A DNA stretch of 64,000 nucleotides, taken from the NCBI GenBank assembly GCA_024642245.1, contig JAHEBM010000002.1, forward strand, positions 1 through 64,000. Reading direction: 5' to 3'. Position 1 is the stretch's first letter; each line of letters begins with the position of its first letter. Shown in pieces: positions 41,489 to 60,086 of the stretch. A program made the translations under genes and the position numbers. Below the pieces are notes generated by a model, which was not told the DNA's origin, made no database searches, and was given only the letters and a program-made list of their open reading frames with translations. The stretch is from Haliea sp. (lineage in GTDB: Bacteria; Pseudomonadota; Gammaproteobacteria; Pseudomonadales; Halieaceae).

Positions 41489-42490
41489 TCACAGGCCCTT
41501 GCGGTAGCCGTAGGGGGTGACCCCGGTCCAGGCCTTGAATGCCCTTATAAACGCGCTGGATTCGGAGAAGCCGGCGCGATAGGCGATTTCCTCGATGCTC
41601 AGCCCCTGCTTGCCAAGGAAGTGCAGGGCGGTATCGCGCCGCAGGAAATTTTTTATGTCCTTGAACGAGGTGCCTTCACCTGCCAGCCGCCTGCGCAGGG
41701 TCTGTGGGTGGATATCCAGCCTGGCGGAAACCTCCGCCAGTTCGGGCAGGCTGTCCATATTTTGCCTCAGGATATCGCGTACCCTGGTGGTCCAGCTGTC
41801 GTTGGCAAACTGCTGTGTGAGCATGAATAGCACCGGGTGGCGCAGGAAGTGGCGCAGGGATGCCTCATTCTGCCTCAGGGGTCGATCGAGCAGGGTCGAT
41901 GCGAAGCGCAGGCCGGCGGCGGGTTGTCCGAATAACACCGGGGCCCCCATATATACCTGGTGGTATTCCCCGCGGCCAGCGGCGGGTTCGTACTTGAGGT
42001 CGACCCCCAGCAGTGGCAGCTGCTCCTGCACCAGCCAGTTGCAGAACCGCTGGCTGTTGCACAGGAACAATTCGCTGTAGTAGGGGCCGGTGGTGGCCAG
42101 CGGGTCCATTTCTACCAGCGTCAGGCGGGTAATGTCGTCCTCGGCCGCCATGAGGGGGTGGATGCCGGACTCGAACAGCTGGTAGAAACGGCAGTAACGG
42201 CTGAGGGCCTGACCCAGCGTGGCGCTGCCGACCACCGCATGGCACATCATTGACCAGCTGCCCACGGGTGTGGGCCTTGAGGTATAGCCCAGGGATTCAT
42301 CCTGCAGGGCGAGCATGGTACTCACCTGCAGGTCGGCAAATCGTTCCACCGATATCCGGGCATCGTCCTCCAGCAGCAGCCGTGGCGAGATACGATTCTT
42401 GCGCAGCAGCGCAACCGGGTCCAGGCCACGGTTCACTGTGTGCTTGAGAACCGCCCGTGCAAATTTCACCGAGATGGATGGATTGCGCAC
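41489..42490 (-). CDS. AraC family transcriptional regulator
   Basis: A 333-residue regulator of the OruR/ArgR-like AraC subfamily. The N-terminal ligand-binding domain (about 15-200) contains LLEDDARISVERFADLQVST and YTSRPTPVGSWSMMCHAVVG. The C-terminal region (about 235-333) has two helix-turn-helix motifs: LAEVSARLDIHPQTLRRRLA and LSIEEIAYRAGFSESSAFIR, ending in the GVTPYGYRKGL signature. Members respond to small metabolites and often activate neighbouring catabolic genes. The gene is 11 bases downstream of the diguanylate cyclase and may be co-transcribed with it. The acyl-CoA cluster starting at 43804 is a candidate target. Confidence 0.9.
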   Translation of the reverse strand: MRNPSISVKFARAVLKHTVNRGLDPVALLRKNRISPRLLLEDDARISVERFADLQVSTMLALQDESLGYTSRPTPVGSWSMMCHAVVGSATLGQALSRYCRFYQLFESGIHPLMAAEDDITRLTLVEMDPLATTGPYYSELFLCNSQRFCNWLVQEQLPLLGVDLKYEPAAGRGEYHQVYMGAPVLFGQPAAGLRFASTLLDRPLRQNEASLRHFLRHPVLFMLTQQFANDSWTTRVRDILRQNMDSLPELAEVSARLDIHPQTLRRRLAGEGTSFKDIKNFLRRDTALHFLGKQGLSIEEIAYRAGFSESSAFIRAFKAWTGVTPYGYRKGL

Positions 42491-42501
42491 GGGTGACCGC
42501 T

Positions 42502-43668
42502 TTACCGGGCCGGGTTGCTCAGGTGTACCGGTTTGTGTTCCACCGATGCAACCCGGTTGCGTCCACCGCGCTTGGCAAGGTACATGGCGCGGTCTGCTTC
42601 CTGTGACAAGTCATCGAGATTCATACTGCCCACGATGCAGGCAACACCGAGACTGGCGGTAATACCGATACGCTGGAAATCGACCAGCAGGGGTCGCTGC
42701 CCTATGGCCTCCCGAATGCGCTCGGCCAGTACACGGGCGGCATCCAGCTCGGTTTCGGGCAGGATGATGAGGAACTCCTCGCCACCGGTTCGGGCCACGA
42801 CATCACTGGAGCGGCTTGACCGGGTAATGATCTCGGCCACCTGCCGCAGTACATGGTCGCCCACTTCATGGCCGAAGCTGTCATTCACTCCCTTGAAGTG
42901 ATCGATATCCACCATGATGGCGGACGTTGTCAGGGCCCGCCGGGCGGCCTGTGCCATGCTGATCTGCAGTGCATCCTCCATCCCGCGGCGGTTCAGAAGA
43001 CGGGTCAGGGGGTCCAGCGTGGCCAGGTTGGAAAGATGCTGCTGGTATTCGATAACGACACTGGCGAGAAAACCGATAGCGATCAGGGCGTAGGCGACAC
43101 TGTGAAAACCGAAAGCGGCGGCTTCACCTCCAGCGTGGTCACCTGTGCCGACAAAAATGTAAATGGCCACCGGCATTCCCACTGCCATCATCAGCGCCGC
43201 ATAGGCGATGACCGCATCACCGATATTGCGATCGAGCCAGCCGCGCCAGCCGCACAGGATGCCGGTAGCGGTGAAGAACAGGGCAACAGCACTCCCCTGC
43301 ACGACAAACATTTGCCCCGGCGGCAGGAAAAATTCGCAGAGGCAGGCTGTCAGGCAGATTGCACCTAGCAGGATCCGCCCACGGGCATTGCCCGCGCGCT
43401 GGCCCGCTGCCATGAACAGGATATAACTGTTGAGGATAATCATGACGGAGGGCACATCGACGGCCATATGCATGTCGGCGGTCTGTTGCAGCGTCAGGGC
43501 AATCCAGCCCAGTAGGGAGGCCATGAAATACACGGTGTAAAGGCCCAGGCCCGCCGGGGGCTTGCTGGAGTCCGCCAGTACGTAAACAACCAGCATCTGG
43601 GCGCAGGTGATCGAAAAGATCAGGCCGAAAAACATGAATGCCCAGTTACCGGTGAAAATCTGCTCCAT
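42502..43668 (-). CDS. Membrane diguanylate cyclase (GGDEF domain)
   Basis: A 388-residue inner-membrane signalling protein. The N-terminal 205 residues contain about six hydrophobic helices (for example FMFFGLIFSITCAQMLVVYV). The GGDEF domain follows (about 212-375): DPLTRLLNRRGMEDAL, DIDHFKGVNDSFGHEVGD and the active-site GGEEF at 295-299. The inhibitory I-site RSSD (286-289) lies exactly five residues upstream, so product inhibition by c-di-GMP is expected. There is no EAL domain. ATG at 43668 is chosen, with CAGGACG upstream, over an in-frame ATG at 43704. The membrane part is of unknown sensory specificity. Confidence 0.92.
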   Translation of the reverse strand: MEQIFTGNWAFMFFGLIFSITCAQMLVVYVLADSSKPPAGLGLYTVYFMASLLGWIALTLQQTADMHMAVDVPSVMIILNSYILFMAAGQRAGNARGRILLGAICLTACLCEFFLPPGQMFVVQGSAVALFFTATGILCGWRGWLDRNIGDAVIAYAALMMAVGMPVAIYIFVGTGDHAGGEAAAFGFHSVAYALIAIGFLASVVIEYQQHLSNLATLDPLTRLLNRRGMEDALQISMAQAARRALTTSAIMVDIDHFKGVNDSFGHEVGDHVLRQVAEIITRSSRSSDVVARTGGEEFLIILPETELDAARVLAERIREAIGQRPLLVDFQRIGITASLGVACIVGSMNLDDLSQEADRAMYLAKRGGRNRVASVEHKPVHLSNPAR

Positions 43669-43717
43669 TGAACGTCCTGTTATCGCCAGCCAGATGGCTG
43701 TCATTTTAAGTCAATTT

Positions 43718-43764: not shown

Positions 43765-43803
43765 TCCCGGCCTTCGACAATGCAGGCCAGCGGAGGCGGC
43801 ACC

Positions 43804-44979
43804 ATGTTGCAGCGAAATTTCACCGAAGAGCAGAATATGTTCCGGGATGCCTATCGCAAGTTCCTGGCCAGCGAGATTGTGCCACATATGGAAGGCTGGC
43901 GTGAGGCCGGAATAGTCGATCGCGGTGCTTTTCGCAAGGCCGGGGAGCAGGGGTTCCTGATGATCTGGCCCGACGAAAAGTACGGTGGCATGGGGGATCC
44001 CGATTTTCGATTCGAGCAGATTATTATCGAGGAGACCGCGTATGCCAGGGCGGGGGATTGGTATAACACACTGCACAGCCGACTGGTGGGTCCCTACATT
44101 ACCCGGTTCGGCAACCAGGAGCAGTGCCAGCGTTTTTTGCCCGCTTGCATCAGTGGTGAAACGATACTGGCGATCGCCATGACCGAGCCGGACGCCGGCA
44201 GCGACCTGGCCGGAATGCGTGCCCATGCTGCTGACAAGGGCGATTACTGGCTGCTCAATGGCTCCAAGACCTTCATTTCAAACGGAATTAATGCCGATGT
44301 TGTGATCGTTGCGGCAAAGACCGATCCCGAGAACAACCCTCACCATATGACCCTGTTCCTGGTGGAGCGTGGTATGGAGGGCTTTGAACGCGGCCGCAAC
44401 CTGAAGAAAATGGGGCTGAAGGCCCAGGACACCGCGGAGTTGTTTTTCAACGACGTAAAAGTGCCCAGAAGCAATGTCCTCGGGGAGCCCGGCCAGGGAT
44501 TCATCTACCTGATGAAGGGACTGGCCGAAGAGCGCCTTATCGGCGCAGCCGGTTACCTGTCGGCTGCCCAGCTGTCCTGGGACCTGGCCGCCGATTACGT
44601 GAAAGAGCGCAAGGCGTTTGGCAAGCCCCTGGCCGCATTCCAGAATACCCAGTTCAAGCTGGCTGAAATGCGTACCCAGCTGGACCTGGCGCAGGTGTAT
44701 GTGGACCAGTGCGTGCAGTCTTTCAATGCCGGGGCACTGACCGCCGTCGATGCGGCCAAGGCCAAGCTGGTCACCAGTGAACTGCAGGTGGCCGTGGCGG
44801 ACCTTGGCGTGCAGTTACACGGCGGCCACGGCTATATGGACGAATATCCCATTAGCAGGCAGTATACCGACGCCAAGATATCAACCATCTACGCGGGTAG
44901 TTCCGAAGTGATGAAGATTATTATCAGCCGGGATTGCCTGGGTGATAGTTATGTCCCTTTCAACGCACGTAATTTCTAG
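43804..44979 (+). CDS. Acyl-CoA dehydrogenase
   Basis: A 391-residue flavoprotein that forms the alpha-beta double bond in an acyl-CoA. Hallmarks are LAIAMTEPDAGSDLAGMRAH, NGSKTFISNGINADVVIVAA, the ERKAFGKPLAAFQNTQFKLA segment and QLHGGHGYMDEYPISRQYTD. The motif that carries the catalytic Glu in medium-chain enzymes (IYEGT) is IYAGSSEVMK here, so that Glu is Ala. As in isovaleryl-CoA and long-chain dehydrogenases, the base is probably the Glu in LAEERLIGAAG. ATG at 43804 is chosen from GGAGG rather than the in-frame ATG at 43780. It is the first gene of a plus-strand cluster reaching 52808. Confidence 0.93.
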   Translation: MLQRNFTEEQNMFRDAYRKFLASEIVPHMEGWREAGIVDRGAFRKAGEQGFLMIWPDEKYGGMGDPDFRFEQIIIEETAYARAGDWYNTLHSRLVGPYITRFGNQEQCQRFLPACISGETILAIAMTEPDAGSDLAGMRAHAADKGDYWLLNGSKTFISNGINADVVIVAAKTDPENNPHHMTLFLVERGMEGFERGRNLKKMGLKAQDTAELFFNDVKVPRSNVLGEPGQGFIYLMKGLAEERLIGAAGYLSAAQLSWDLAADYVKERKAFGKPLAAFQNTQFKLAEMRTQLDLAQVYVDQCVQSFNAGALTAVDAAKAKLVTSELQVAVADLGVQLHGGHGYMDEYPISRQYTDAKISTIYAGSSEVMKIIISRDCLGDSYVPFNARNF

Positions 44980-44995
44980 TACGAGGAGAACGAAC

Positions 44996-45769
44996 ATGGA
45001 ATTAGCAGGAAAAGTAGCCATCGTCACCGGTGGTGCATCCGGTCTGGGTCGCGCCACGGTGGAAGCCTATGTAGCCAAGGGAGCAAAGGTTGCCATCTTC
45101 GATATGAATGAGGCCAACGCCAATGAGGTGATTGCGCAGCTGGGGGCAGACAATGTCGCTTTCTGGAACGTCAACGTGGCCGATGAAGGTTCGGTAAAGA
45201 CCGCGGTGGAGGGTGTCGTGGAGAAGTTTGGCGCGCTTCATATATGTAACAATTACGCCGGCATCGGCAACGCCAACAAGACCTTTGGCAAGAAGGGCGT
45301 ATTTCCGCTTGACCAGTACATGCTGGTTATCAATATCAACCTTGTGGGCACATTCAATGTGTCGCGCTACGCTGCGGAGCAGATGGCAAAGAACGAGCCG
45401 ATCAATGCCGATGGCGGCCGCGGGGTCATTATCAATACGGCGTCCGTTGCGGCCTACGAGGGGCAGGTTGGGCAGGTTGCCTACTCCGCCAGCAAGGGCG
45501 GCGTTATCGGTATGACATTGCCGATGGCCAGGGACCTGGCGAGCTACGGTATTCGTGTAAACACAATCGTGCCGGGCCTTATTCACACCCCGTTGTTCGA
45601 GTCGCTGCCGGAGCAAGCCTACAAGTCGCTGGAATCCAGCGTGTGTTACCCCCCGCGCCTGGGCAAGCCGGCGGAGATCGCGCATCTTTCGGTGTTTATC
45701 GCGGAGAATGACTACGTCAATGGCGAAAGCATTCGCCTGGACGGCGCCATCCGTATGCAACCACGTTAA
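44996..45769 (+). CDS. SDR, 3-hydroxyacyl-CoA dehydrogenase type 2-like
   Basis: A 257-residue short-chain dehydrogenase. It has AIVTGGASGLGRATVEAYVA (NAD loop), an Asp after the second strand (IFDMNEA, suggesting NAD+ rather than NADP+), INTASVAAYEGQVGQVAYSA with catalytic Ser and the YSASK Tyr/Lys, and VPGLIHTPLFESLPEQAY. It resembles human HSD17B10, which oxidises branched 2-methyl-3-hydroxyacyl-CoA and other substrates. ATG at 44996 follows GAGGAG; the frame is open further upstream into the previous gene. It lies 16 bases after the acyl-CoA dehydrogenase stop. Confidence 0.88.
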   Translation: MELAGKVAIVTGGASGLGRATVEAYVAKGAKVAIFDMNEANANEVIAQLGADNVAFWNVNVADEGSVKTAVEGVVEKFGALHICNNYAGIGNANKTFGKKGVFPLDQYMLVININLVGTFNVSRYAAEQMAKNEPINADGGRGVIINTASVAAYEGQVGQVAYSASKGGVIGMTLPMARDLASYGIRVNTIVPGLIHTPLFESLPEQAYKSLESSVCYPPRLGKPAEIAHLSVFIAENDYVNGESIRLDGAIRMQPR

Positions 45770-45783
45770 GCGGGAGACATATT

Positions 45784-46917
45784 ATGGGGCCATTGAACGG
45801 CTACACCGTACTCGAACTGGCCGGTATCGGGCCCGCTCCCATGGGTGGGATGATCCTGGCGGATATGGGTGCGGAGGTGATCCGCATCGATCGCGCCGCC
45901 GGTGCCAGCCACCTGGTGATGAAAGATGTCAGCGCGCGGGGCAAGAAATCGGTAGTGCTCAATCTCAAGACACCTGCAGGTATCGAGACCTTGTTGCGCA
46001 TGGTGGAAAACGCCGATGTGATCATCGACCCGTTTCGCCCGGGTGTGTGTGAAAAACTGGGTATTGGTCCCGATGTCTGCATGGCGCGGAATCCCAAACT
46101 GGTTTTTGCCCGCATGACGGGTTGGGGCCAGGACGGGCCCCTGGCCCACGCTGCGGGCCACGACATCAATTACATCTCCATTACGGGCGCCCTGTATGCC
46201 GTGGGGCGCAAGGGCGAGAAACCCGTGCTGCCGCTAAACCTCGTCGGCGATATGGGCGGTGGCGGTATGCTGTTGGTTAACGGCGTACTGGCCGCGCTGC
46301 TGGAGGCGACCAATTCCGGCAAGGGCCAGGTGATCGATGCTGCCATGGTGGACGGCGCCGCGCAGTTGATGTGGATGTTTCATGGCTTCGAGGCACTGGG
46401 TATGTGGGATGCCAGCCAGCGTGGGTCGAATATGCTGGACGGCGGGGCGCACTATTACGATACCTACGAGTGTGCAGATGGCCAGTACATCTCGCTGGGT
46501 TCGATAGAACCGCAGTTCTATGAACTGTTGAAGCATCACGCGGGCCTGTCTGAAGAGGACTTTGGCGAGCAGAATAATGCCGCCAAATGGCCCGAGATGA
46601 AGCAGAAACTGACAGCGGTGATCCGGCAGAAAACCCAGGCACAGTGGTGCGACATCATGGAGGGCAGCGATGTGTGTTTTGCCCCGGTGTTGTCTTTCAC
46701 GGATGCTCCCGCCCACCCGGCGAACGTGGCGCGCGATACCTACCTTGAGATCGACGGAATTACCCAGCCGGCACCCGCCCCGCGTTTCAGTCGCACGCCT
46801 TCGAAGGTGCGGCATGGAGGTCATGATCCCGGGCAGGACACGGACGCTGTGCTGGCCGCCATGGGTTTTGGCGAGCGCGAGATCGCAGAGTTAAAACAGG
46901 GCGGCGCAATAGCCTGA
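45784..46917 (+). CDS. Alpha-methylacyl-CoA racemase (CaiB/BaiF family III transferase fold)
   Basis: A 377-residue protein closely resembling the M. tuberculosis alpha-methylacyl-CoA racemase. The catalytic histidine is in AAGHDINYISITGALYAVG and the catalytic aspartate in NLVGDMGGGGMLLVNGVLAA. GKGQVIDAAMVDGAAQLMWM is also typical. Such enzymes epimerise the methyl-bearing carbon of 2-methyl-branched acyl-CoAs so that S-specific acyl-CoA dehydrogenases can act. The presence of this activity points to methyl-branched, isoprenoid or sterol side-chain substrates for the whole cluster. It starts 14 bases after the SDR stop. Confidence 0.88.
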   Translation: MGPLNGYTVLELAGIGPAPMGGMILADMGAEVIRIDRAAGASHLVMKDVSARGKKSVVLNLKTPAGIETLLRMVENADVIIDPFRPGVCEKLGIGPDVCMARNPKLVFARMTGWGQDGPLAHAAGHDINYISITGALYAVGRKGEKPVLPLNLVGDMGGGGMLLVNGVLAALLEATNSGKGQVIDAAMVDGAAQLMWMFHGFEALGMWDASQRGSNMLDGGAHYYDTYECADGQYISLGSIEPQFYELLKHHAGLSEEDFGEQNNAAKWPEMKQKLTAVIRQKTQAQWCDIMEGSDVCFAPVLSFTDAPAHPANVARDTYLEIDGITQPAPAPRFSRTPSKVRHGGHDPGQDTDAVLAAMGFGEREIAELKQGGAIA

Positions 46918-46943
46918 CAGACAACTGCATAGGGGGATGCCGC

Positions 46944-47732
46944 ATGGGCAAGTACCAATCAATACTGGTGGAGCGACAGGGTAACACGGCGGTTGTCAGC
47001 CTGAATCGTACCGGCAGCCTGAACGCTTTTAACGCCGAACTGCGCCGGGAGCTTCGCCTTGCGGTCCGGGAAGTCAATGATGACCCGGCGGTGCGGGTGG
47101 CGATTCTGACTGGTGCCGGGCGTGCCTTTTGCGCCGGAGCGGATCTTGCTGAATCAGCAGAAGCGGGAGAGGACTTTCGCGTAGAGGACCAGCTCAACGG
47201 CGAGTACAAACCTGTTTTGCTGGAAATGAATAGCGCCCCCCAGCCATGGATAGCTGCCGTCAACGGTGCGGCCGCGGGTATCGGCAGTGCCTTTGCAATG
47301 AACTGTGATCTCGTGGTGATGGCGGATGATGCTTACCTTTACCAGGCCTTCACCGCCATCGGACTGGTGCCGGACGGCGGTGCGACCTGGCATCTCGCGC
47401 GCACCCTGGGTCGCCAGCGCGCCTACGAGGTGATCGTGTCGGGAGAAAAAATACGGGCGCAGAAATGCCTGGACTGGGGGCTGTGCAACCGGGTGGTTCC
47501 CGCCTCGGAATTGCTCGAGCAGACTCTTCAGTGGGCAGGGGAGCTGGCAACGAAGTCTCCGCTCGCCCTGCGCTATGCGAAGCAGGCGCTCAACAGCGCC
47601 ATGGAGAAATCCATGGGTGAAACCATTTCCCATGAGGCTGCGCTGCAGCACATTTGCCTTACCAGCGACGATGCGAGCGAAGGCGTCACTGCGTTCCTGG
47701 AAAAGCGGGCGCCGCGCTGGCAGGGACGTTAA
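46944..47732 (+). CDS. Crotonase-fold enoyl-CoA hydratase/isomerase (PaaG-like)
   Basis: A 262-residue crotonase-superfamily enzyme. The oxyanion-hole segments are AGRAFCAGADLAESAE (about 60-75) and NGAAAGIGSAFAMNCDLVVM. Both glutamates used for hydration by classical enoyl-CoA hydratase (the GCEL and QPEI positions) are replaced here, by SAF and QAF. An aspartate is present in GLVPDGGATWHLARTLG, as in PaaG-type isomerases. An isomerase role (double-bond shift) is therefore more likely than hydration. It lies between the racemase (26-base gap) and the carboxyltransferase. Confidence 0.85.
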   Translation: MGKYQSILVERQGNTAVVSLNRTGSLNAFNAELRRELRLAVREVNDDPAVRVAILTGAGRAFCAGADLAESAEAGEDFRVEDQLNGEYKPVLLEMNSAPQPWIAAVNGAAAGIGSAFAMNCDLVVMADDAYLYQAFTAIGLVPDGGATWHLARTLGRQRAYEVIVSGEKIRAQKCLDWGLCNRVVPASELLEQTLQWAGELATKSPLALRYAKQALNSAMEKSMGETISHEAALQHICLTSDDASEGVTAFLEKRAPRWQGR

Positions 47733-47755
47733 ACGAGGCCTGTTGTCACGCGCTT

Positions 47756-47784
47756 TTATTGCGGCGGAGTAATTGGGCTATAGT
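47756..47784 (+). promoter_or_regulatory. Weak candidate internal promoter before the carboxyltransferase
   Basis: TATAGT (47779-47784) is a good -10 element, but the -35 at 17 bases (TTATTG) is poor. The 81-base gap here is the longest in the cluster, so the downstream genes may have their own start. Confidence 0.25.
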
Positions 47785-47813
47785 GTGCGCTCCTGATTGG
47801 CGAGAAGCGATAG

Positions 47814-49373
47814 ATGACTGAAAACGAACGGCCGGAATTGGCCGCGTGGCGTGAACGGCTCGCCCGCACCCTCGACGAACAACGGGTGGAGGCGCGGCAG
47901 AGGCGGCATGCAAAGGGTTATCGCACCGCTCGTGAAAATATCGAGGACCTGGTGGATCCCGGCTCCTTACTGGAATATGGGCAGCTCGCCGTGGCGGCTC
48001 AGCGCAGCCGCAGGGACTACCAGGACCTGCAGTCCAGTACGGCGGCCGATGGCATCATCACTGGCACCGGTACCATCAACGCAGGGCTGGTTGGCGCCGA
48101 TCGCGCCAGGTCCGCCGTCATCGTCAATGACTACTCCGTCCTGGCCGGTACCCAGGGATTCTTCCACCACAAGAAACTGGATCGCATCTGCGAACTGGCC
48201 GAGGAACTCAGGCTGCCGCTGGTCATGTACACGGAGGGCGGTGGCGGTCGTCCCGGTGATACCGATGTCCTGACCCAGATCGCCGGTCTCAATATCCGTT
48301 CATTCAGTACCTGGGCCGGTCTCAGCGGCAAGGTGCCGCGTATCGCCGTAAACAACGGCTACTGCTTTGCCGGTAATGCAGCGCTGTTTGGCTGTGCCGA
48401 TTTTACGATAGCCACGCGCAGTTCCTGGATAGGCATGGCCGGTCCCGCGATGATAGAAGGTGGGGGCCTGGGGAAGTTCGATCCAACGGATATTGGCCCC
48501 ATCGAGATACAGGAAAAAAACGGCGTTGTGGATATCGTCGCCCGGGATGAGGCCCATGCCACCGCCCTGGCCCGGCAGCTGCTGAGCTACTTCCAGGGTC
48601 CTGTTGAAACCTGGACCGCCACGTCGCAGGAAGGCCTGCGAGACCTGGTACCACAGGATCGGCGTTGGGCTTACCCGGTGCGGCGGGTGATAGAAACCAT
48701 TGCAGACACGGACTCTTTCCTGGAATTGCAGCGGATATTCGGGCGCAGCATCATCACCGGCTTTATCCGCCTGCAGGGGCGCCCGGTGGCGCTGATTGCC
48801 AATGACTGCCAGCAGATGGGTGGAGCCGTGGATTCCCAGGCCTCGGAAAAGGCCGCGCGATTCCTGCGCATCTGCAATGCCCTTGGCCTGCCACTGCTGT
48901 CCCTGACGGATACGCCCGGCTTCATGGTGGGACCGGACAGTGAAAGGGTGGGCGCCGTGCGCAGCATGTCATCACTTTTTCTGGCGGGCGCCGCGTTGTC
49001 GGTGCCGGTGGTGACTATTTTCCTGCGCAAGGGCTATGGCCTGGGCGCCATGGCCATGGCCGGGGGAAGTTTTGTGCGCCCGGTCTACGCGGCCTCCTGG
49101 CCCACCGGAGAGTTCGGTGGAATGGGACTTGAAGGCGCAGTGCGACTGGGCTTCAGGAAAGAACTGGATGCGGTGGCGGAACCGGCGGAGCGGGAAACCC
49201 TGTTTCAGCAACTGCTGGCGAGAATGTACGAGGTTGGTAAGGCAACGGAAGCCGCGGCGCACCTGGAAATCGACGCCGTGATTGACCCAGCGGATACCCG
49301 CGAGGTCGTAACCCGGGCGCTTGAGGCTGCCGGGGCATTTAATAATAACAGGACCTGGAGTACTCAAACATGA
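47814..49373 (+). CDS. Acyl-CoA carboxylase, carboxyltransferase (beta) subunit
   Basis: A 519-residue protein with the tandem crotonase-like halves of PccB/MccB/AtuC-type carboxyltransferases. The N-terminal part has GYRTARENIEDLVDPGSLLE; the first half FHHKKLDRICELAEELRLPL, MYTEGGGGRPGD and FAGNAALFGCADFTIA; the second half LSLTDTPGFMVGPDSERVGA, MAMAGGSFVRPVYAASWPTG and FGGMGLEGAVRLGFRKE. These transfer carboxyl from biotin to acyl-CoA or the reverse. No biotin carboxylase or biotin-carrier gene is present in the window, so the partner must be elsewhere, or the enzyme acts as a decarboxylase or with another biotin protein. The stop overlaps the DUF3604 start by four bases. Confidence 0.88.
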   Translation: MTENERPELAAWRERLARTLDEQRVEARQRRHAKGYRTARENIEDLVDPGSLLEYGQLAVAAQRSRRDYQDLQSSTAADGIITGTGTINAGLVGADRARSAVIVNDYSVLAGTQGFFHHKKLDRICELAEELRLPLVMYTEGGGGRPGDTDVLTQIAGLNIRSFSTWAGLSGKVPRIAVNNGYCFAGNAALFGCADFTIATRSSWIGMAGPAMIEGGGLGKFDPTDIGPIEIQEKNGVVDIVARDEAHATALARQLLSYFQGPVETWTATSQEGLRDLVPQDRRWAYPVRRVIETIADTDSFLELQRIFGRSIITGFIRLQGRPVALIANDCQQMGGAVDSQASEKAARFLRICNALGLPLLSLTDTPGFMVGPDSERVGAVRSMSSLFLAGAALSVPVVTIFLRKGYGLGAMAMAGGSFVRPVYAASWPTGEFGGMGLEGAVRLGFRKELDAVAEPAERETLFQQLLARMYEVGKATEAAAHLEIDAVIDPADTREVVTRALEAAGAFNNNRTWSTQT

Positions 49374-51247
49374 AGCGAACACTGGCGATAGTGGCCCTCG
49401 GGCTTTCCATGACAAGTGTGGCCGGGCAGGAAAAGCAACTGCTGTGGGGCGACACGCACCTGCATACAACCTATTCCTCGGACGCGTTTGCCAACAACAA
49501 TTTGTCAGCAGACCCGGATACAGCCTACCGTTTTGCAATGGGCCTGCCGGTTGTTCACCCCTACCACCAGGCGAGGGTGCAGATCGGCACGCCGCTCGAT
49601 TTCCTGGTGGTGTCTGACCATGCGGAATTCCTGGGGGCCATCCGCCACGTGTACTTTGACGGGGTGGATACCAGTGAGCTGGGCCTGATTGCATCGGCAA
49701 AGGCGAAGATTGCCCAGTGGATATTGCGGCGGGCCATCGACAGCCGGTCCGCCCGCAGCCTGTTTATCGATGTGTTGCCGATGCCCAGGGACGCGGCGGA
49801 GGCGGCGGCCGCGGATTTTGCCGAACGCGGGCAAAATGTAGGCTGGCTACCCCCCATGCCGCAGGTGGAAGTGAATACCTGGAAAACCATTACTGCAGCA
49901 GCTGAGAGATATAACCAGCCCGGGAAATTCACCGCGATGATCGGCTGGGAGTGGAGCTCGATACCCGGGGGTGCCAACCTGCACCGGGTCGTACTGACGG
50001 ATGCCGGCGCTGATGTCGCGCAGACGTTCCAGCCCTTTGGCCTGGATGACAGTCCCTACCCGGAGGATCTCTGGGCATGGCTGGATGAAACCAGCGACAG
50101 TACCGGGGCGGACTTTCTCGCTATTCCCCACAATTCAAATATATCCAAGGGTTTTATGTTCGACACAAAAACCCTGCGGGGGGAGAGCTTCAGTCCCGAA
50201 TATCTCGCCCAGCGACGCAAATGGGAGAAAATCGCGGAAATCACCCAGATAAAAGGCGACTCGGAAACACACCCGGACCTGTCCCCCGACGATGAGTTTG
50301 CCGACTTCGAAACCTATCCGTTTTATATCCAGCGCGAACCCACACCCTACGTGGCTGCCGTGGGTGATTACCTGCGACCCGCCCTGCGCCGCGGACTTGA
50401 AATGCAGCGGCAGCTGGGCTCAAACCCTTATCAACTGGGGTTCATCGGCTCCACTGATGCCCACACGGCACTGTCGTCCGCAGAGGAAAACAACTTCCAT
50501 GGCAAGCTCGCCACGGATTCTATTCCCGCCAACAAGCAGACGCGCTTTGGCAATAACAGTCAGGGAGCCTACGGCTGGGGCATGTCGGCCTCGGGCCGGG
50601 CCGCCGTCTGGGCTGGTGCAAATACCCGGGAAGAGATTTTTGCCGCCATGAAGCGGCGGGAGGTATACGCTACCACGGGGCCGCGTATTGCCGTGCAATT
50701 CTTCGGCGGTTGGGGCTTCAGCGACGCCGATCTCGGGGCAACAGACCTGTACGCCCAGGCCATGTCATCCGGTGTTCCCATGGGTGGTGAGCTGTCCCTC
50801 CCCGGGGCGTCCAGCCAGCCTCCGACCTTTATTATCCAGGCGCTGAAAGACCCCGTGGGTGCCAACCTGGACAGGGTGCAGATTATCAAGGGCTGGGTGG
50901 ACCAGGCGGGCGTGTCTCACGAGCGGGTTTACGATGTGGCATGGTCGGGGCAGCGCAGCCCGGGGCCGGATGGAAAACTGCCACCCGTGGGGAATACCGT
51001 GGATGTAGAAACCGCCAGGTATACCAATAGCATCGGTGAGCCGCAGTTTGTTGCCACATGGCAGGACCCGGCTTTCGATGCGTCACAGTCAGCGTTTTAC
51101 TACGCCAGGGTGCTGGAAATACCCACCCCGCGCCATTCCCTGTTCGACGCAATTGCGCTCGGCGGGAAGCAGGAGACCGGGCGGCCGGATACCCTACAGG
51201 AGCGAGCCTATACCTCGCCAATCTGGTATCAGGCCGGCGAGAATTGA
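49370..51247 (+). CDS. DUF3604 secreted protein (PHP-like)
   Basis: A 625-residue protein with a signal peptide (MKRTLAIVALGLSMTSVAGQ), so probably periplasmic. The DUF3604 family is recognised by WGDTHLHTTYSSDAF (about 26-40), DFLVVSDHAEFLGAI, AMIGWEWSSIPGGANLHRVV, AIPHNSNISKGFMF and IGSTDAHTALSSAEENNFHG. The His/Asp pattern resembles PHP-type metallophosphoesterases, and a metal-dependent hydrolase is a reasonable guess. No characterised member is known to me. It is translationally coupled to the carboxyltransferase (ATGA), which ties this secreted protein to an acyl-CoA pathway. Confidence 0.88.
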   Translation: MKRTLAIVALGLSMTSVAGQEKQLLWGDTHLHTTYSSDAFANNNLSADPDTAYRFAMGLPVVHPYHQARVQIGTPLDFLVVSDHAEFLGAIRHVYFDGVDTSELGLIASAKAKIAQWILRRAIDSRSARSLFIDVLPMPRDAAEAAAADFAERGQNVGWLPPMPQVEVNTWKTITAAAERYNQPGKFTAMIGWEWSSIPGGANLHRVVLTDAGADVAQTFQPFGLDDSPYPEDLWAWLDETSDSTGADFLAIPHNSNISKGFMFDTKTLRGESFSPEYLAQRRKWEKIAEITQIKGDSETHPDLSPDDEFADFETYPFYIQREPTPYVAAVGDYLRPALRRGLEMQRQLGSNPYQLGFIGSTDAHTALSSAEENNFHGKLATDSIPANKQTRFGNNSQGAYGWGMSASGRAAVWAGANTREEIFAAMKRREVYATTGPRIAVQFFGGWGFSDADLGATDLYAQAMSSGVPMGGELSLPGASSQPPTFIIQALKDPVGANLDRVQIIKGWVDQAGVSHERVYDVAWSGQRSPGPDGKLPPVGNTVDVETARYTNSIGEPQFVATWQDPAFDASQSAFYYARVLEIPTPRHSLFDAIALGGKQETGRPDTLQERAYTSPIWYQAGEN

Positions 51248-51272
51248 GATTCCCAGTACAAAGGATTAAAAA

Positions 51273-52040
51273 ATGAAGAATTTGTTTGATGTGTCCGGCA
51301 AGGTAGCGGTGGTGACCGGCGGGTCTCGCGGCATCGGCGCGATGATTGCCCGGGGTTTTGTCCAGAACGGGGTGAAAACCTATATCACCGCCCGCAAGCA
51401 GGAGGAGCTCGAGGCGACCGCTGCCGAGTTATCCAGGCTCGGGCAGTGTATCGCGCTGCCCTCCAACCTGGGTACGCTCGAGGGTGTGGTCGCATTTGCC
51501 AGGGCTGTGAGGGAGCGGGAAGAGCGGTTGGATATCCTGGTGAACAACGCGGGGGCGAGCTGGGGCGCGGCAATCGACGAGTTTCCCGAAAGCGGCTGGG
51601 ACAAGGTCATGGACCTGAACGTGAAGTCGCTGTTTTTCCTGACGAAGGAGTTGTTGCCGGCGCTGCGCGCCGCAGGCACGGCAGGGGATCCGGCCCGGGT
51701 GATCAATATCGGCTCCGTGAATGGCATTACGCATTCCCATATGGAGAATTATTCCTACTCCGCCAGCAAGGCCGCGGTGCATCACCTTACCCGCCACCTG
51801 GGTGCCGACCTGGCGTCGCAGCATATTAACGTCAACGGTATCGCGCCGGGCCATTTCCCCAGCAAGATGACGGCCCACTGGCAGGACCAGGCGGAAGAAA
51901 TGGCCAGGGGATATCCCTGCGGTCGAATCGGCAGCGCCGAGGATGCAGCGGGTACCGCCATTTACCTGTGTTCGCGCGCATCCGCCTGGGTAGCGGGGCA
52001 TACCATCATGCTTGATGGCGGCGTCGTGGCCGCGGCGTGA
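51273..52040 (+). CDS. SDR family oxidoreductase
   Basis: A 255-residue short-chain dehydrogenase with AVVTGGSRGIGAMIARGFVQ, TARKQEELEAT (Arg after strand 2, suggesting NADPH), LVNNAGASWGAAIDEFPESG, INIGSVNGITHSHMENYSYS with YSASKAAVHHL, and GHTIMLDGGVVAA at the end. It is close to RhlG-type 3-oxoacyl reductases. It lies 25 bases after DUF3604 and 3 bases before the hydrolase gene, as a reductive step in the cluster. The substrate is inferred from context only. Confidence 0.87.
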   Translation: MKNLFDVSGKVAVVTGGSRGIGAMIARGFVQNGVKTYITARKQEELEATAAELSRLGQCIALPSNLGTLEGVVAFARAVREREERLDILVNNAGASWGAAIDEFPESGWDKVMDLNVKSLFFLTKELLPALRAAGTAGDPARVINIGSVNGITHSHMENYSYSASKAAVHHLTRHLGADLASQHINVNGIAPGHFPSKMTAHWQDQAEEMARGYPCGRIGSAEDAAGTAIYLCSRASAWVAGHTIMLDGGVVAAA

Positions 52041-52043
52041 CAG

Positions 52044-52808
52044 GTGCCAGACCCCGTGCCTGAGACGGCTTTTCTCGCACAGCCGGACGGCTCCCGGATC
52101 GCCTATTACCACTCCCCCGGAGATGCCCCGGGCATTCTGTTCTGCTGTGGCTTCAACTCCAATATGCAGGGCATCAAGGCACTCGCGCTGGAACAGTGGT
52201 GTAGCGCCCGGGGGCGGCAATTCACCCGCTTTGACTACTACGGGCACGGGGAATCCGGGGGCGAGGTGGAGGATGGCTGTATCGGACGCTGGCGTGACGA
52301 TGCCATTGCCATTCTCGATGCCGTCACCTCCGGTCCGCAGCTCGTGGTGGGCTCTTCGATGGGTGGCTGGATCATGTTGCTGCTCGCCCTTGCCCGGCCC
52401 GAGCGGATATGTGCCTTGCTGGGACTGGCAGCGGCGCCTGATTTTACCGAGCGCCTGCGAAGCAGCCTGACGGATAGCCAGCGCAACCAGTTGGCAGACA
52501 GTGGTTACGCCGACCTACCGAATTGCTACGACGATGGCGAGCCATACCGGGTTGGTCGCAAGCTGCTGGATGAGGGCCGGTCACACCTCCTGCTGGGCGC
52601 GCCCATTCCGCTGGAACTGCCGGTCAGGTTGATCCAGGGACAGCTTGACGAGGACGTGCCGTGGCGCCTGGCCTTGCAACTGGCGGATCAACTGCGTACT
52701 GACGATGTCGAAGTGCAGCTGGTCAAACGTGGTGATCACCGCCTGTCCGGGCCGGCGGACCTGCAGCGTTTGCTTACCACCGCGCAGGAGTTACTGGCCG
52801 GACTTTAA
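52044..52808 (+). CDS. Alpha/beta hydrolase (ABHD10-like)
   Basis: A 254-residue serine hydrolase starting at GTG. The nucleophile elbow is VVGSSMGGWIMLLLALA (Ser105), the acid is probably in LIQGQLDEDVPWRLALQL and the histidine in VKRGDHRLSGPADLQ. DYYGHGESGG precedes them. It resembles mitochondrial ABHD10 and bacterial relatives that cleave short esters or thioesters. It is the last plus-strand gene of the acyl-CoA cluster, 3 bases after the SDR stop, and could release the acid product or hydrolyse the ester or lactone made by the monooxygenase that converges on it. Confidence 0.85.
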   Translation: MPDPVPETAFLAQPDGSRIAYYHSPGDAPGILFCCGFNSNMQGIKALALEQWCSARGRQFTRFDYYGHGESGGEVEDGCIGRWRDDAIAILDAVTSGPQLVVGSSMGGWIMLLLALARPERICALLGLAAAPDFTERLRSSLTDSQRNQLADSGYADLPNCYDDGEPYRVGRKLLDEGRSHLLLGAPIPLELPVRLIQGQLDEDVPWRLALQLADQLRTDDVEVQLVKRGDHRLSGPADLQRLLTTAQELLAGL

Positions 52809-52849: not shown

Positions 52850-54343
52850 TCAACGGATATCCCGCAGCGTGAAATCACTCATTACCAGGCGACGGTGGTC
52901 CTTCAGGTAAGTCCTGGCATTGTAAGGGTATAGCGACGCGATCTCGCCATCGGGTCGTTTGTACCAGCTCTTGCACTCACCAGCCCAAACGGTGTTTTGC
53001 AGGGCGCCTCGTATCTCCTTGTTATAGCGCTGACTGGCCTCGTCAGTGACTTCGATAAGTTTGTCCCGCCCGGCCCGGGTGATGGCCTCGATGATAAGGT
53101 TCAGCTGCGCTTCGATCATATAGACCACCGAAGTGGTTCCCACCCCCGTGTTTGGTCCTGTTGTCAGGTAGAAGTTGGGCAGCCCCGCGACGAAACCGCC
53201 CTTGTACGCCCGCGGCAGGTCGCTCCACAGCTCGCTGAGTGTGACGCCACCTGGACCGGTAATACGCGTCTGGCGCATATAATTCTCGGTATCGAAGCCG
53301 GTGGCGTAAACGATGATATCAGCCGGGTGACGGCTGCCGTCGCGGGTCACGATGGCATTGCCCTCGATACGATCTATGCCCACGGTCACGAGTTCAACAT
53401 TCGGCCGGTTCATCGCCTGGTAAAAATTATCTGCAATCAACAGGCGCTTACACCCGGCGGGATAGTCCGGGATCATTGCCGCCCTGGCTTGCGGATCTGC
53501 CACGCTTTTTTGCACGTGCCTGCGCAGCATTGCCTCGACACGTTCGCGCCAGCGGGATCTTTCCCTGGTTTTTACCAGTGGGAATATCAGCCACTCGCCG
53601 CGCAGGAAGATCCATTTGCGATAGAGGCGATTCCACCAGGGCCAGCGGGCAAAACGGGCCTTCTCCCGGGGGGTGAACTCACGATCATTGCGCGGCGCAA
53701 TATAATTTGGGGTGCGCTGGTAGACGTCCAGTTGGCCGACTATGCCAGCCAGCTCCGGAATCAGCTGGATGGCACTGGCGGCACTGCCGATGACCGCAAC
53801 CCGCTTACCTTTGAAATCCACCGCGTGGTTCCACTGGGCGGAGTGCATGCTCGGCCCGGCAAAGCTTGCCATGCCGGGAATGTCGGGCCAGGCGGGCAGG
53901 TGCAGGCCGCCGGTGGCGAAAATAAGGTGGTGTGCAGTCGCGGTTGCACCCCCGGCCAGCTGGGCAATCCACAGCTTGCGCTGGTCGTCAAAGCGGCACT
54001 GCTCAACGGTGGCATTGAGGCTGATGTGCCGTTTTACGTCATACTTTTCGGCACAGTGCTCGATATAGGCCTGTATCTCTGCCTGTGGCGAGTACTTGCG
54101 TGACCAGTTCGGGTTGGGCTCAAACGAGTAGCAGTAAAGGTGTGAAGCGATATCACAGGCGGCACCGGGGTAGGTGTTGTGCCACCAGGTTCCGCCGATA
54201 CCCGCCGCCTTCTCAAAAACGCTGAATTTTTCGATACCCGCTTCACGCAACCTGATGGCGGCACCCACGCCGGCGAAGCCTGCACCGATGACGATGACGT
54301 CGAGGACGTCTGCTGGTGCCGCGCCGTTTACGGTGTCGCTCAT
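52850..54343 (-). CDS. FAD-dependent Baeyer-Villiger-type monooxygenase
   Basis: A 497-residue class B flavin monooxygenase. It has an FAD loop VIVIGAGFAGVGAAIRLREA, EKAAGIGGTWWHNTYPGAAC, the Baeyer-Villiger fingerprint FAGPSMHSAQWN (161-172) and a second nucleotide loop VIGSAASAIQLIPELA for NADPH. Related enzymes insert oxygen next to ketones of cyclic or steroid-like compounds to give esters or lactones. The fingerprint ends in Asn where Pro or Asp is usual. ATG at 54343 is chosen. It is encoded on the opposite strand, converging with the acyl-CoA cluster, and follows rapA by 14 bases. Confidence 0.88.
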   Translation of the reverse strand: MSDTVNGAAPADVLDVIVIGAGFAGVGAAIRLREAGIEKFSVFEKAAGIGGTWWHNTYPGAACDIASHLYCYSFEPNPNWSRKYSPQAEIQAYIEHCAEKYDVKRHISLNATVEQCRFDDQRKLWIAQLAGGATATAHHLIFATGGLHLPAWPDIPGMASFAGPSMHSAQWNHAVDFKGKRVAVIGSAASAIQLIPELAGIVGQLDVYQRTPNYIAPRNDREFTPREKARFARWPWWNRLYRKWIFLRGEWLIFPLVKTRERSRWRERVEAMLRRHVQKSVADPQARAAMIPDYPAGCKRLLIADNFYQAMNRPNVELVTVGIDRIEGNAIVTRDGSRHPADIIVYATGFDTENYMRQTRITGPGGVTLSELWSDLPRAYKGGFVAGLPNFYLTTGPNTGVGTTSVVYMIEAQLNLIIEAITRAGRDKLIEVTDEASQRYNKEIRGALQNTVWAGECKSWYKRPDGEIASLYPYNARTYLKDHRRLVMSDFTLRDIR

Positions 54344-54357
54344 GAACACTCGCTCAT

Positions 54358-57120
54358 TCAGGTTGTAATGACCAGGCGCAGTGCCTGTAGCTGCAAGTTG
54401 GCGTGGCGGATATGCACGGCACTTTCGTCTATCCGGTGCCGCAGGTGTTCCAGCTCCTCCTCCCGGATGGAAGGATTGACCGCGCGCAGGGCCTGCAGCC
54501 GCGCCAGCTCGGCTCCCAGTGCCTCGTGCATGGCCTGTTCAGCCTTGGCAAGTATCACCTGCAACTGCTGTTCGGCCTGGCTCTTTGCCAGGGCCATTTT
54601 AGCCTCTACCTCGTCGTGCACCTGCTTGATAATCGCCAGGGCGGTGGCTTTTTTTACGCCTTCGACCAGGTCGTTAAGTCGGGTGTGTGGCACCAGCTCA
54701 GCCAGGTTCTTGCCCCGTGCATCTACCAGCAGGCGCATCGGTGACAGCGGCAGGAAGCGCTCGACCTGCAGCGCACGCGGGGCAACACAGTTGATGGTGT
54801 ACAAGGCTTCCAGCAACATGGTCCCTGGGGCGACGCCCTTCAATTTGATCGTCCCCATGGCCGCGTTGCCCAGCTCTGTGGAATGCAGCATGTCCATGGC
54901 CTCCAGGATCATGGGGTGCTCCCAGCTGACGAACTCCATGTCCTCGCGCGACAGCGCCTTGTCGCGGCTGAAGGTGAGAGTGGTCCCGTCCTCGCGCAGG
55001 TAGGGGAAGTGGCCCGTCAGCATATGCTCCGAGGGACGCAAAATAAGCGCCTGTTCCGAGTGGAACTCCTGGTCCACGCCAAAGGCCTCGCACAGGGCTT
55101 CCAGGTATTTTTCCAGGGCGTCACCCTCTTCATTTGCCCTGATTTCCTCGATAAGCGCGGCGGCGACTTTGGGCTTGCAGGAGTTTCTCTCGAGCAGCCG
55201 GTCGCGGCCCTCGCGCAGTTCCCGCCGGGTTTGCGCGGTGAAAGCCGCGGTATCGGCCAGTAGCTGCTCGAATTCCCCCGTACGCTTGCCGAGCTGGGCC
55301 AGCAGGCGTTCACGGAAGTTCTCGAGAATCATATAGCCGGCCGAGCAGCTGTCCGTAAACAGGTTCATGCCCTTGTCGTACCAGTCCAGCAGGGTCTCCT
55401 GTGCGGTCTTTTCCAGGAAGGGCACGTGAATTTCCACATCGGACTGCTGGCCAATCCGGTCGAGGCGTCCGATACGTTGCTCGAGCAGGTCGGGGTTGAG
55501 GGGCAGGTCGAACAGGATGAGGTGGTGGGCGAACTGGAAGTTTCGTCCTTCGCTGCCAATTTCTGAACATACCAGGGTCTGGGCACCGTTGCTCTCGTCG
55601 GCGAAATACGCAGCAGCCCGGTCGCGCTCGATGATTGATAGCCCTTCATAAAACGCCGTGGAACGTATGCCGGCACGCAGGTGGAGATGGTGTTCCAGGG
55701 CCACGGCAGTCTCGGCGCGGGCACAGATTACCAGGGCTTTTTCAGGTCGCAATACCTTCAGTGTCTGTTCCAGCCACTTGACCCGGGTGTCGAACGCAAG
55801 CCAGCTGTCGTCCATGTAGGGTTGCTCAGGGTGTAGCTGCTCTGCCAGGTCTACCTTGGCAAAGGTGTATTCATCCGGGGCCGGTAGCGGGTAACGGTGC
55901 AGTATCCGGCGGGGAAAACCCGTTACCGCCGCCCGGGTGTTGCGAAACAGCACCCTGCCCGTGCCGTGGCGATCCAGTATCTGCGAAATGAGCACTTCCG
56001 CGGGAGCCCCGGGATCCAGGCCCGCTGGCAGGTCGGCGGGGTGCTGGCCCGCTTCCAGGGCGTCGGCCAGTTCACTCAGGTGGCGATACTGCTGTTCCTC
56101 GGCCTGGAAACGCTCCAGGTCGTGGAAGCGGGACGGGTCCAACAGGCGAAGGCGGGCGAAGTGGCTGGCCTGCCCGATCTGCTCGGGGGTCGCGGTCAGC
56201 AGTAACAGGCCCGCGCTGGCGCGAGACAGGGCTTCGACGAACAGGTAATCCTCCCCTGCGCCTGAGACTGACCAGTGCAGGTGATGGGCTTCGTCTATCG
56301 CGACGAGGTCCCAGTTCGCCGCGATCGCTTGTGCCTGCAACTCGGGGCGGGATTCGAATAATGCCAGGCTGCACAGTACCAGCTGCTCACTCTCGAATGG
56401 ATTAGTCTCTGGCATTTCCGCCACCCGCTCTGCATCGAACAGGGCGAAACGAAGATTGAAACGTCTCAGCATTTCCACCAGCCATTGGTGCAGGAGGCTG
56501 GGTGGAACCAGCACCAGTACCCGGGAAGCGCGCCCCGTGAGCAGTTGCTGGTGGATGATCATGCCGGCCTCGATCGTTTTGCCCAGGCCAACCTCGTCAG
56601 CGAGCAACACCCGGGGTGCATAACGCTGGCCGACCTCATTGGCAATATACACCTGGTGCGGCAGCAGGCTGGTGCGCGAGCCCATCAATCCTCGCGCGCT
56701 GGATACCTGCAGGCGATCCAGGTGACCGAATGTGGCCACCCGCAGGGCAAAATGGCTGTTGCTGTCAAAGTGGCCGTTGAGCAGGCGCTGTTGTGGTGTC
56801 GTTAACTGCACAAACGCATCCAGCTCCAGCTCCGACACGGTCTGCTGTTCGTCGTGGTGGTCGGTTCCGGTATACACCAGCAGTCCGTGTTGTTCCTGCA
56901 CGGCTGTAACAAGCAGTTCAAGGTTGTCGACCGTTGATATACGGTCCCCCACCTTGAAGCGCAGGCGGCTCAGCGGCGCGCTTTGCGTGGCGTAGGTGCG
57001 CTCCTCACCGACGGCGGGGAAGGCGAGGGTGACCCGCCGCCCCTCGAAGTCGACCACTACGCCAAGCCCGAGCTGTGCGTCCGCGTGGCTGACCCAGCGC
57101 TGTCCGACAATGTATTCCAT
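54358..57120 (-). CDS. rapA: RNA polymerase-associated ATPase RapA (HepA)
   Basis: A 920-residue SNF2-type ATPase that recycles stalled RNA polymerase. The N-terminal Tudor-like domains (about 1-100) begin with YIVGQRWVSHADAQLGLGVV. The ATPase core has DEVGLGKTIEAG (174-185), DEAH (275-278) and the second-lobe motifs IGSEGRNFQFAHHLILFDLP and QRIGRLDRIGQ. The C-terminal RapA-specific region follows. Slightly shorter than E. coli RapA (968). The gene start overlaps the tatD stop by one base, so translation is coupled. Confidence 0.95.
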   Translation of the reverse strand: MEYIVGQRWVSHADAQLGLGVVVDFEGRRVTLAFPAVGEERTYATQSAPLSRLRFKVGDRISTVDNLELLVTAVQEQHGLLVYTGTDHHDEQQTVSELELDAFVQLTTPQQRLLNGHFDSNSHFALRVATFGHLDRLQVSSARGLMGSRTSLLPHQVYIANEVGQRYAPRVLLADEVGLGKTIEAGMIIHQQLLTGRASRVLVLVPPSLLHQWLVEMLRRFNLRFALFDAERVAEMPETNPFESEQLVLCSLALFESRPELQAQAIAANWDLVAIDEAHHLHWSVSGAGEDYLFVEALSRASAGLLLLTATPEQIGQASHFARLRLLDPSRFHDLERFQAEEQQYRHLSELADALEAGQHPADLPAGLDPGAPAEVLISQILDRHGTGRVLFRNTRAAVTGFPRRILHRYPLPAPDEYTFAKVDLAEQLHPEQPYMDDSWLAFDTRVKWLEQTLKVLRPEKALVICARAETAVALEHHLHLRAGIRSTAFYEGLSIIERDRAAAYFADESNGAQTLVCSEIGSEGRNFQFAHHLILFDLPLNPDLLEQRIGRLDRIGQQSDVEIHVPFLEKTAQETLLDWYDKGMNLFTDSCSAGYMILENFRERLLAQLGKRTGEFEQLLADTAAFTAQTRRELREGRDRLLERNSCKPKVAAALIEEIRANEEGDALEKYLEALCEAFGVDQEFHSEQALILRPSEHMLTGHFPYLREDGTTLTFSRDKALSREDMEFVSWEHPMILEAMDMLHSTELGNAAMGTIKLKGVAPGTMLLEALYTINCVAPRALQVERFLPLSPMRLLVDARGKNLAELVPHTRLNDLVEGVKKATALAIIKQVHDEVEAKMALAKSQAEQQLQVILAKAEQAMHEALGAELARLQALRAVNPSIREEELEHLRHRIDESAVHIRHANLQLQALRLVITT

Positions 57121-59853: not shown

Positions 59854-60086
59854 GTCATCCTTCCGCTCGCGCCTGGCGAGCCTCGTTGAGAGAGTTGCAC
59901 CCGCGCACCGCACTGACTTTTGTAGTGGCGGTATGCCGGGCTGTCGCGCAATGCGCCATTGCCGGTCTTGCGGGAATTTCCCCGGCGTGGCATGTTGGTG
60001 CTTTCACGATTGGACAGGCAGGTGGCCGTTATATCACTTTACTGCCGCTATTCGCTAGAAAATGTGCTCGGGAATTGGTCAGGCAA

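Follow-up and report, generated by a model that had tools for sequence, protein, structure and literature searches.

Sterols and other branched lipids are catabolized in actinobacteria by racemase- and CYP125-linked systems, and a racemase together with beta-oxidation enzymes, as with AMACR and HSD10, fits 2-methyl-branched acyl-coenzyme A (acyl-CoA), to which isoprenoid chains and the side chains of sterols give rise. We analysed a 64,000-nucleotide stretch of Haliea sp. DNA (contig JAHEBM010000002.1, positions 1 to 64,000; 'the window'), in which an acyl-CoA operon contains a gene for a DUF3604 protein (49370–51247, + strand; 625 residues), predicted from its sequence, a Pfam profile, a structure model and fold comparison to be an exported PHP-fold metallohydrolase. 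This operon resembles the actinobacterial systems in its racemase and its HSD10-type and LCAD-type enzymes, and CYP125-like cytochromes P450 lie beside some orthologs of its DUF3604 gene. It differs from them in adding an LCC/YCC-like carboxyltransferase (with no biotin carboxylase gene) and the putatively exported PHP-fold protein, and in that no close copy of the CYP125-like P450 was found in the genome from which the window comes. We favour, at a probability of roughly 45%, the reading that the DUF3604 protein carries out an accessory, substrate-releasing step for an operon of 2-methyl-branched (isoprenoid/sterol side-chain type) acyl-CoA beta-oxidation.

On the structural side, the model suggests that the catalytic domain of DUF3604 has the fold of the PHP superfamily, which includes BVU_3505 (3e38), TM0559 (2anu), EndoQ (Endonuclease Q), RNase AM and BAD_1165. 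Unlike these proteins, DUF3604 combines a predicted signal peptide, a length of ~600 residues and a C-terminal beta-rich domain, and has near-invariant residues of its own (K295, Q293, N255 and N257). A precedent for cleavage of non-phosphate esters by a PHP-like domain is offered by CehA and McbA, described in an excerpt of PMC8292978 as carbamate ester hydrolases, with McbA needing three histidines in its predicted PHP-like domain. DUF3604 shares with the CehA/McbA family (NF038032) a weak sequence signal and a YxTxGP-like motif. It falls outside that family, scoring 27.7 bits against an NCBIfam cut-off of 80, and a profile comparison, for which 6 of 11 CehA/McbA loci gave a usable open reading frame (ORF), aligned 25 columns only at 27% probability. 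In the literature searched, DUF3604 occurs in one paper, as a label for Chlamydia CT_425 (PMC11925237), and we found no functional study of DUF3604 and no mention of PF12228.

Predicted PHP fold and conserved ligand positions

The window protein is a full-length DUF3604 member. The PF12228 profile aligns residues 20–621 with model positions 2–590/591 (E=3.7e-228), at 759.2 bits against a curated cut-off of 20.4. A structure model built from 50 aligned relatives (mean predicted local distance difference test score (pLDDT) 91.3, predicted template modelling score 0.92) has the barrel fold of the PHP superfamily. In fold comparison 3e38 was the best match (Z 15.6, 230 aligned residues, root mean square deviation 3.5), with further PHP matches to 2anu (Z 14.8) and EndoQ (Z 12.8), and in Foldseek two chains of 3e38 were the only ones to reach E≤0.001 (E 3.8e-8). 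Neither the protein nor a 50-row profile retrieved a significant relative when solved structures were searched by sequence, and a PHROGs search returned none.

Nine residues, H30, H32, D38, H84, E194, H205, H254, D363 and H365, are kept in all 187 family sequences or in 186 of them, with one gap; we take them to fit the canonical PHP ligand set of HxH, third His/Asp, DH, E, H, H and DxH. On the + strand, motif I (D28-T-H30-L-H32; 49451–49465) and its third ligand position, D38 (49481–49483), have H30, H32 and D38 in 187/187. Motif II (D83-H84; 49616–49621) has H84 in 187/187 and D83 in 186/187. E194, at the bridging-carboxylate position (49949–49951), H205 (49982–49984), H254 of an HNSN motif (50129–50131) and both D363 and H365 of motif IV (D363-A-H365; 50456–50464) are each present in 186/187, the remaining sequence having a gap. 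Beyond these ligand positions, N255, N257, E290, Q293, K295 and G296 are each kept in 186/187 sequences; the lysine, within QIKG (50252–50254; one gap), is family-specific. The initial annotation had pointed to four metal-ligand-like motifs, DTHLHT, SDHAE, NSNISKG and STDAHT, and all are present; its suggestion of a metal site agrees with the modelled fold and with the conservation of the nine positions. Metal binding and hydrolysis, like the bond cleaved and the substrate, are inferred.

The N terminus (approximately residues 1–19, MKRTLAIVALGLSMTSVAGQEK; 49370–49426, + strand) is signal-peptide-like by eye and by hydropathy score. The model has low pLDDT at residues 1–6 and 8–18, and 175 of the 187 family members examined have a hydrophobic N terminus. 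Judged from its sequence, the protein is probably exported. The C-terminal beta-rich domain spans approximately residues 440–625 (50687–51244, + strand) according to the strands of the model; 3e38, which matches the fold best, carries the title of a two-domain protein.

Linkage of one DUF3604 clade to acyl-CoA operons

Fifteen unique loci, the window included, have a carboxyltransferase gene within 2.5 kb upstream of DUF3604 on the same strand. The initial annotation had described the window pair as translationally coupled, and the carboxyltransferase stop indeed overlaps the DUF3604 start by the four bases ATGA (49370–49373, + strand; carboxyltransferase ORF 47814–49373). The close same-strand linkage is conserved, but the coupling is not, because only 2 of the 15 loci, the window and L247, keep the overlap. 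Of the remaining 13 loci, two have negative spacing (−15 and −7), their starts, taken from the longest ORF, falling inside the preceding gene; L051 has 1041 bp between the genes, and the rest have 21 to 151 bp.

The linkage extends to other genomes (the sets of 58, 140 and 299 genomes used here include the window's own). Among 140 genomes of the bacterial family, 119 have a carboxyltransferase match at E≤1e-100, and 116 have a DUF3604 resembling that of the window at E≤1e-180. The two adjoin in at least 20 of the 140, from 10 genera and in one case with a ~1 kb gap, as counted by eye from the coordinates of the best 10 and 9 candidates per genome with contig-end cases left out. Gene order varies. 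In g11 all three ortholog loci retrieved place DUF3604 after racemase and hydratase; the genes ahead of it are a ligase and a hydratase in L250 and L251 (both g12) and at 12 loci on named contigs. The operon also occurs in Kineobactrum sediminis F02 (L052), a relative with a name.

The association is specific to one clade. From 205 DUF3604 ORFs we retained 192 of full length and 187 unique sequences (those over 700 residues being cut to the last 640), from which a tree was built with FastTree only. All but one of the 33 copies in acyl-CoA operons fall within a single 52-tip clade (support 99; 7 changes of state). The 32 operon members among these 52 are no random sample, since loci L228–L247 were fetched via the carboxyltransferase and some of L248–L267 because adjacency had already been seen. 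Outside the clade, operon-type context occurs in 1 of 135 copies, and this one (L051_28, a tandem neighbour) counts only through an SDR of the same operon; among the 84 non-clade copies from the own genome and from loci picked by hidden Markov model (HMM) it occurs in none. Hence the cluster association proposed in the initial annotation holds for the ortholog clade, and an acyl-CoA association of the whole family is rejected. Among loci chosen by DUF3604 similarity alone, an operon gene, ligase or P450 lies within 2.5 kb of 21 of 26 in-clade copies vs 4 of 51 others, under strong-neighbour cut-offs, including 230 bits for the hydratase, that were chosen after the scores were known. A P450 gene lies no more than 2.5 kb away from 7 of the 20 clade members outside acyl-CoA operons; at four of these it is on the same strand at a distance of 36–60 bp.

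Paralogs are located elsewhere and are numerous. We counted 21 DUF3604 matches in the own genome (81% complete); 12, the window copy among them, are near full length. DUF3604 is present in 43 of 58 genomes of relatives, several with at least 18 to 20 matches, and in 21 of 299 genomes spread over the phylum (20 over the cut-off); 79 plasmid records, mostly from rhizobia, also carry it. TonB receptors lie near 12, and sulfatases near 7, of the 84 non-clade copies.

Several further observations concern the paralogs. Sulfatase-like genes, recognized by sequence, lie near the own-genome copies L123, L131 and L137, with no enrichment over background. A HupE/UreJ-like membrane protein, named by eye, is encoded near DUF3604 genes in L179 and L303:6255-7106; its cluster has 5 members near and 0 far in a comparison of 440 near vs 328 far genes. 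A HupE/UreJ-like gene is annotated beside DUF3604 on a Sinorhizobium plasmid, and a link to metal transport is conceivable. Head-to-tail tandem copies occur in L131:5926-10177, L089, L166 and L172. At G000:C43:74228-74581, within a long contig, pieces from both ends of the family stand in one 200-residue frame, probably a decayed DUF3604 copy.

The operon and its flanking genes

Eight + strand genes separated by short gaps run from 43780 to 52808. The first encodes an LCAD-type acyl-CoA dehydrogenase (43780–44979; named by Pfam, closest to 2pg0 at 1.2e-115, then LCAD at 1.5e-106) and the second an HSD10-like SDR, a type II 3-hydroxyacyl-CoA dehydrogenase (44996–45769; 3tl3 1.1e-75, human-type HSD10 2.1e-74), with its start set at the internal ATG at 44996. 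They are followed by an alpha-methylacyl-CoA racemase (45784–46917), whose closest solved structure is MCR (1x74, 1.5e-113) and which aligns counterparts of both H126 and D156, presumably the catalytic residues of MCR, and by an enoyl-CoA hydratase (46944–47732; Pfam). Next comes the carboxyltransferase subunit (47814–49373; 519 residues; PF01039 E=6.5e-78). Against solved structures it scores above other carboxylases with LCC (4rcn, 7.1e-173) and with 5fif (1.8e-164), which we take to be YCC, the next match being at 5.4e-66. We call it 'LCC/YCC-like' because no biotin carboxylase/BCCP is present in the same chain or operon; biotin carboxylase matches lie on other contigs only of this 81% complete genome. 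In some relatives the homologous frame is 924 to 1177 residues long and perhaps represents a single-chain form. DUF3604 is followed by a second SDR (51273–52040) and an alpha/beta hydrolase (52044–52808), both named by Pfam. The racemase, HSD10-type and LCAD-type dehydrogenases, hydratase and carboxyltransferase together point to an operon of 2-methyl-branched acyl-CoA beta-oxidation.

Divergent from the operon on the − strand are genes for an AraC-family regulator (41489–42490) and a GGDEF (diguanylate cyclase) protein (42502–43704). A Baeyer-Villiger-type flavin monooxygenase gene (52850–54349, − strand) converges on its other end. Further on lies rapA (54358–57120); in several genera rapA, recognized there by sequence, adjoins the operon or a DUF3604 ortholog, which marks an old locus. 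The protein encoded at 58096–59913 is a putative wax ester synthase/DGAT-like protein.

Some neighbouring genes bear on the substrate. Two clade-adjacent P450s were searched (L249 and L254), and both have CYP125MRCA as best match (1.9e-118 and 6.6e-125), followed by CYP268A2 and CYP124 for L249 and by CYP125 for L254. KshA_C is found in 96 of 140 genomes, own genome included. In L250 the upstream ligase matches steroid-24-oyl-CoA synthetase at 415 bits, short of the 750 needed for membership, and a general long-chain ligase at 418 bits; it is a lead only. A steroid-catabolizing Halieaceae isolate from a sponge is mentioned in an excerpt of PMC5790920.

Proposed function and alternatives

In the mechanism that we favour, the DUF3604 protein would cleave a lipid conjugate outside the inner membrane, most likely at a carboxyl ester and less likely at a phosphate ester. 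The freed alcohol or acid would enter the cell and then be oxidized and activated; the racemase would set the configuration of the acyl-CoA, and the dehydrogenase, hydratase and HSD10-type enzyme would shorten the chain. The initial annotation had likewise proposed that the protein may set the pathway substrate free, for example when it is conjugated as an ester or phosphate. That interpretation is partly supported, by the fold and by the clade-specific linkage, and the release itself is putative.

Several observations weigh against this mechanism. Two nearly complete genomes, G006 and G017 (99% and 98%), keep the carboxyltransferase without any DUF3604 match, and the G006 locus (L240) has dehydrogenase, racemase, hydratase and carboxyltransferase in order. 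The operon of G016 (L235) has no DUF3604 in it, and the carboxyltransferase and the DUF3604 ortholog are apart in g5, g8, g20, g21 and g27. Since G006, G017 and G016 keep operon genes without DUF3604, its step would be accessory and dispensable. The 21 in-clade copies with a strong neighbour are not independent events, because many are close relatives and the hydratase cut-off was set post hoc. TonB receptors and sulfatases find no support as special partners, at 15 and 7 near vs 8 and 5 far in the same background of near and far genes. Matches to the L249 P450 at E≤1e-100 were found in 44 of the 140 genomes and in 7 of the 20 with the carboxyltransferase–DUF3604 pair; the window's own genome (81% complete) gave none at this threshold. 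Finally, G063 (99% complete) has the operon with no KshA_C match. Hence a steroid substrate is possible but not required, and a strictly steroid-nucleus pathway is unsupported.

The bond itself is where the strongest competing explanation enters. A phosphate ester is plausible because the titles of the solved PHP relatives name predicted phosphoesterases, nucleases or DNA polymerase III, and the highest Z scores belong to entries titled as predicted phosphoesterases or to nucleases. An exported phosphoesterase that dephosphorylates a prenyl, sterol or nucleotide-type compound is therefore conceivable, though we consider it improbable: cleavage of carbamate esters has been reported for a PHP-like domain, and none of the named neighbours, which are only part of the total, suggests phosphate metabolism.

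Slightly less credit goes to the view that chance alone placed the protein in the operon: it would be a paralog among many exported hydrolases whose substrates are unrelated, with no role in the pathway. The size of the family in the own genome would suit it, as would the operons that lack DUF3604 and the location of non-clade paralogs elsewhere. Chance hitch-hiking, however, does not predict recurrence, and the linkage recurs within one clade across 12 genera and in varied orders (after carboxyltransferase, after hydratase, after ligase and hydratase), with clade members beside a P450 in other genomes. We rate as very improbable a third alternative, in which the substrate of DUF3604 is a lactone or ester produced by the Baeyer-Villiger-type monooxygenase encoded next to it. 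In its favour, that monooxygenase gene is oriented convergently at the end of the operon in four loci (the window, L244, L246 and L253), and in the comparison of 440 near and 328 far genes all 6 members of a flavin-monooxygenase cluster lie within 3 kb of DUF3604 genes. Against it, an export signal is seen on DUF3604 and none on the monooxygenase, which lies within 2.5 kb at no fewer than 4 of the 52 clade members.

A wider version of the substrate-release reading, which we regard as speculative, is that DUF3604 as a whole comprises exported ester hydrolases of PHP fold, a large family with numerous paralogs in a genome, each of which opens one kind of conjugated natural product for uptake, much as sulfatase families act on sulfated substrates, with the clade described here serving isoprenoid/sterol conjugates to a methyl-branched beta-oxidation operon. 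For a family that has 12 near-full-length copies in one genome and for which we found no functional study, one clade is now tied to an operon with nameable chemistry. The candidate substrates are thereby few, and a named relative that has the operon, Kineobactrum sediminis F02, is at hand. If substrate release is indeed its role, an exported PHP-fold hydrolase would be added to marine lipid and sterol degradation.

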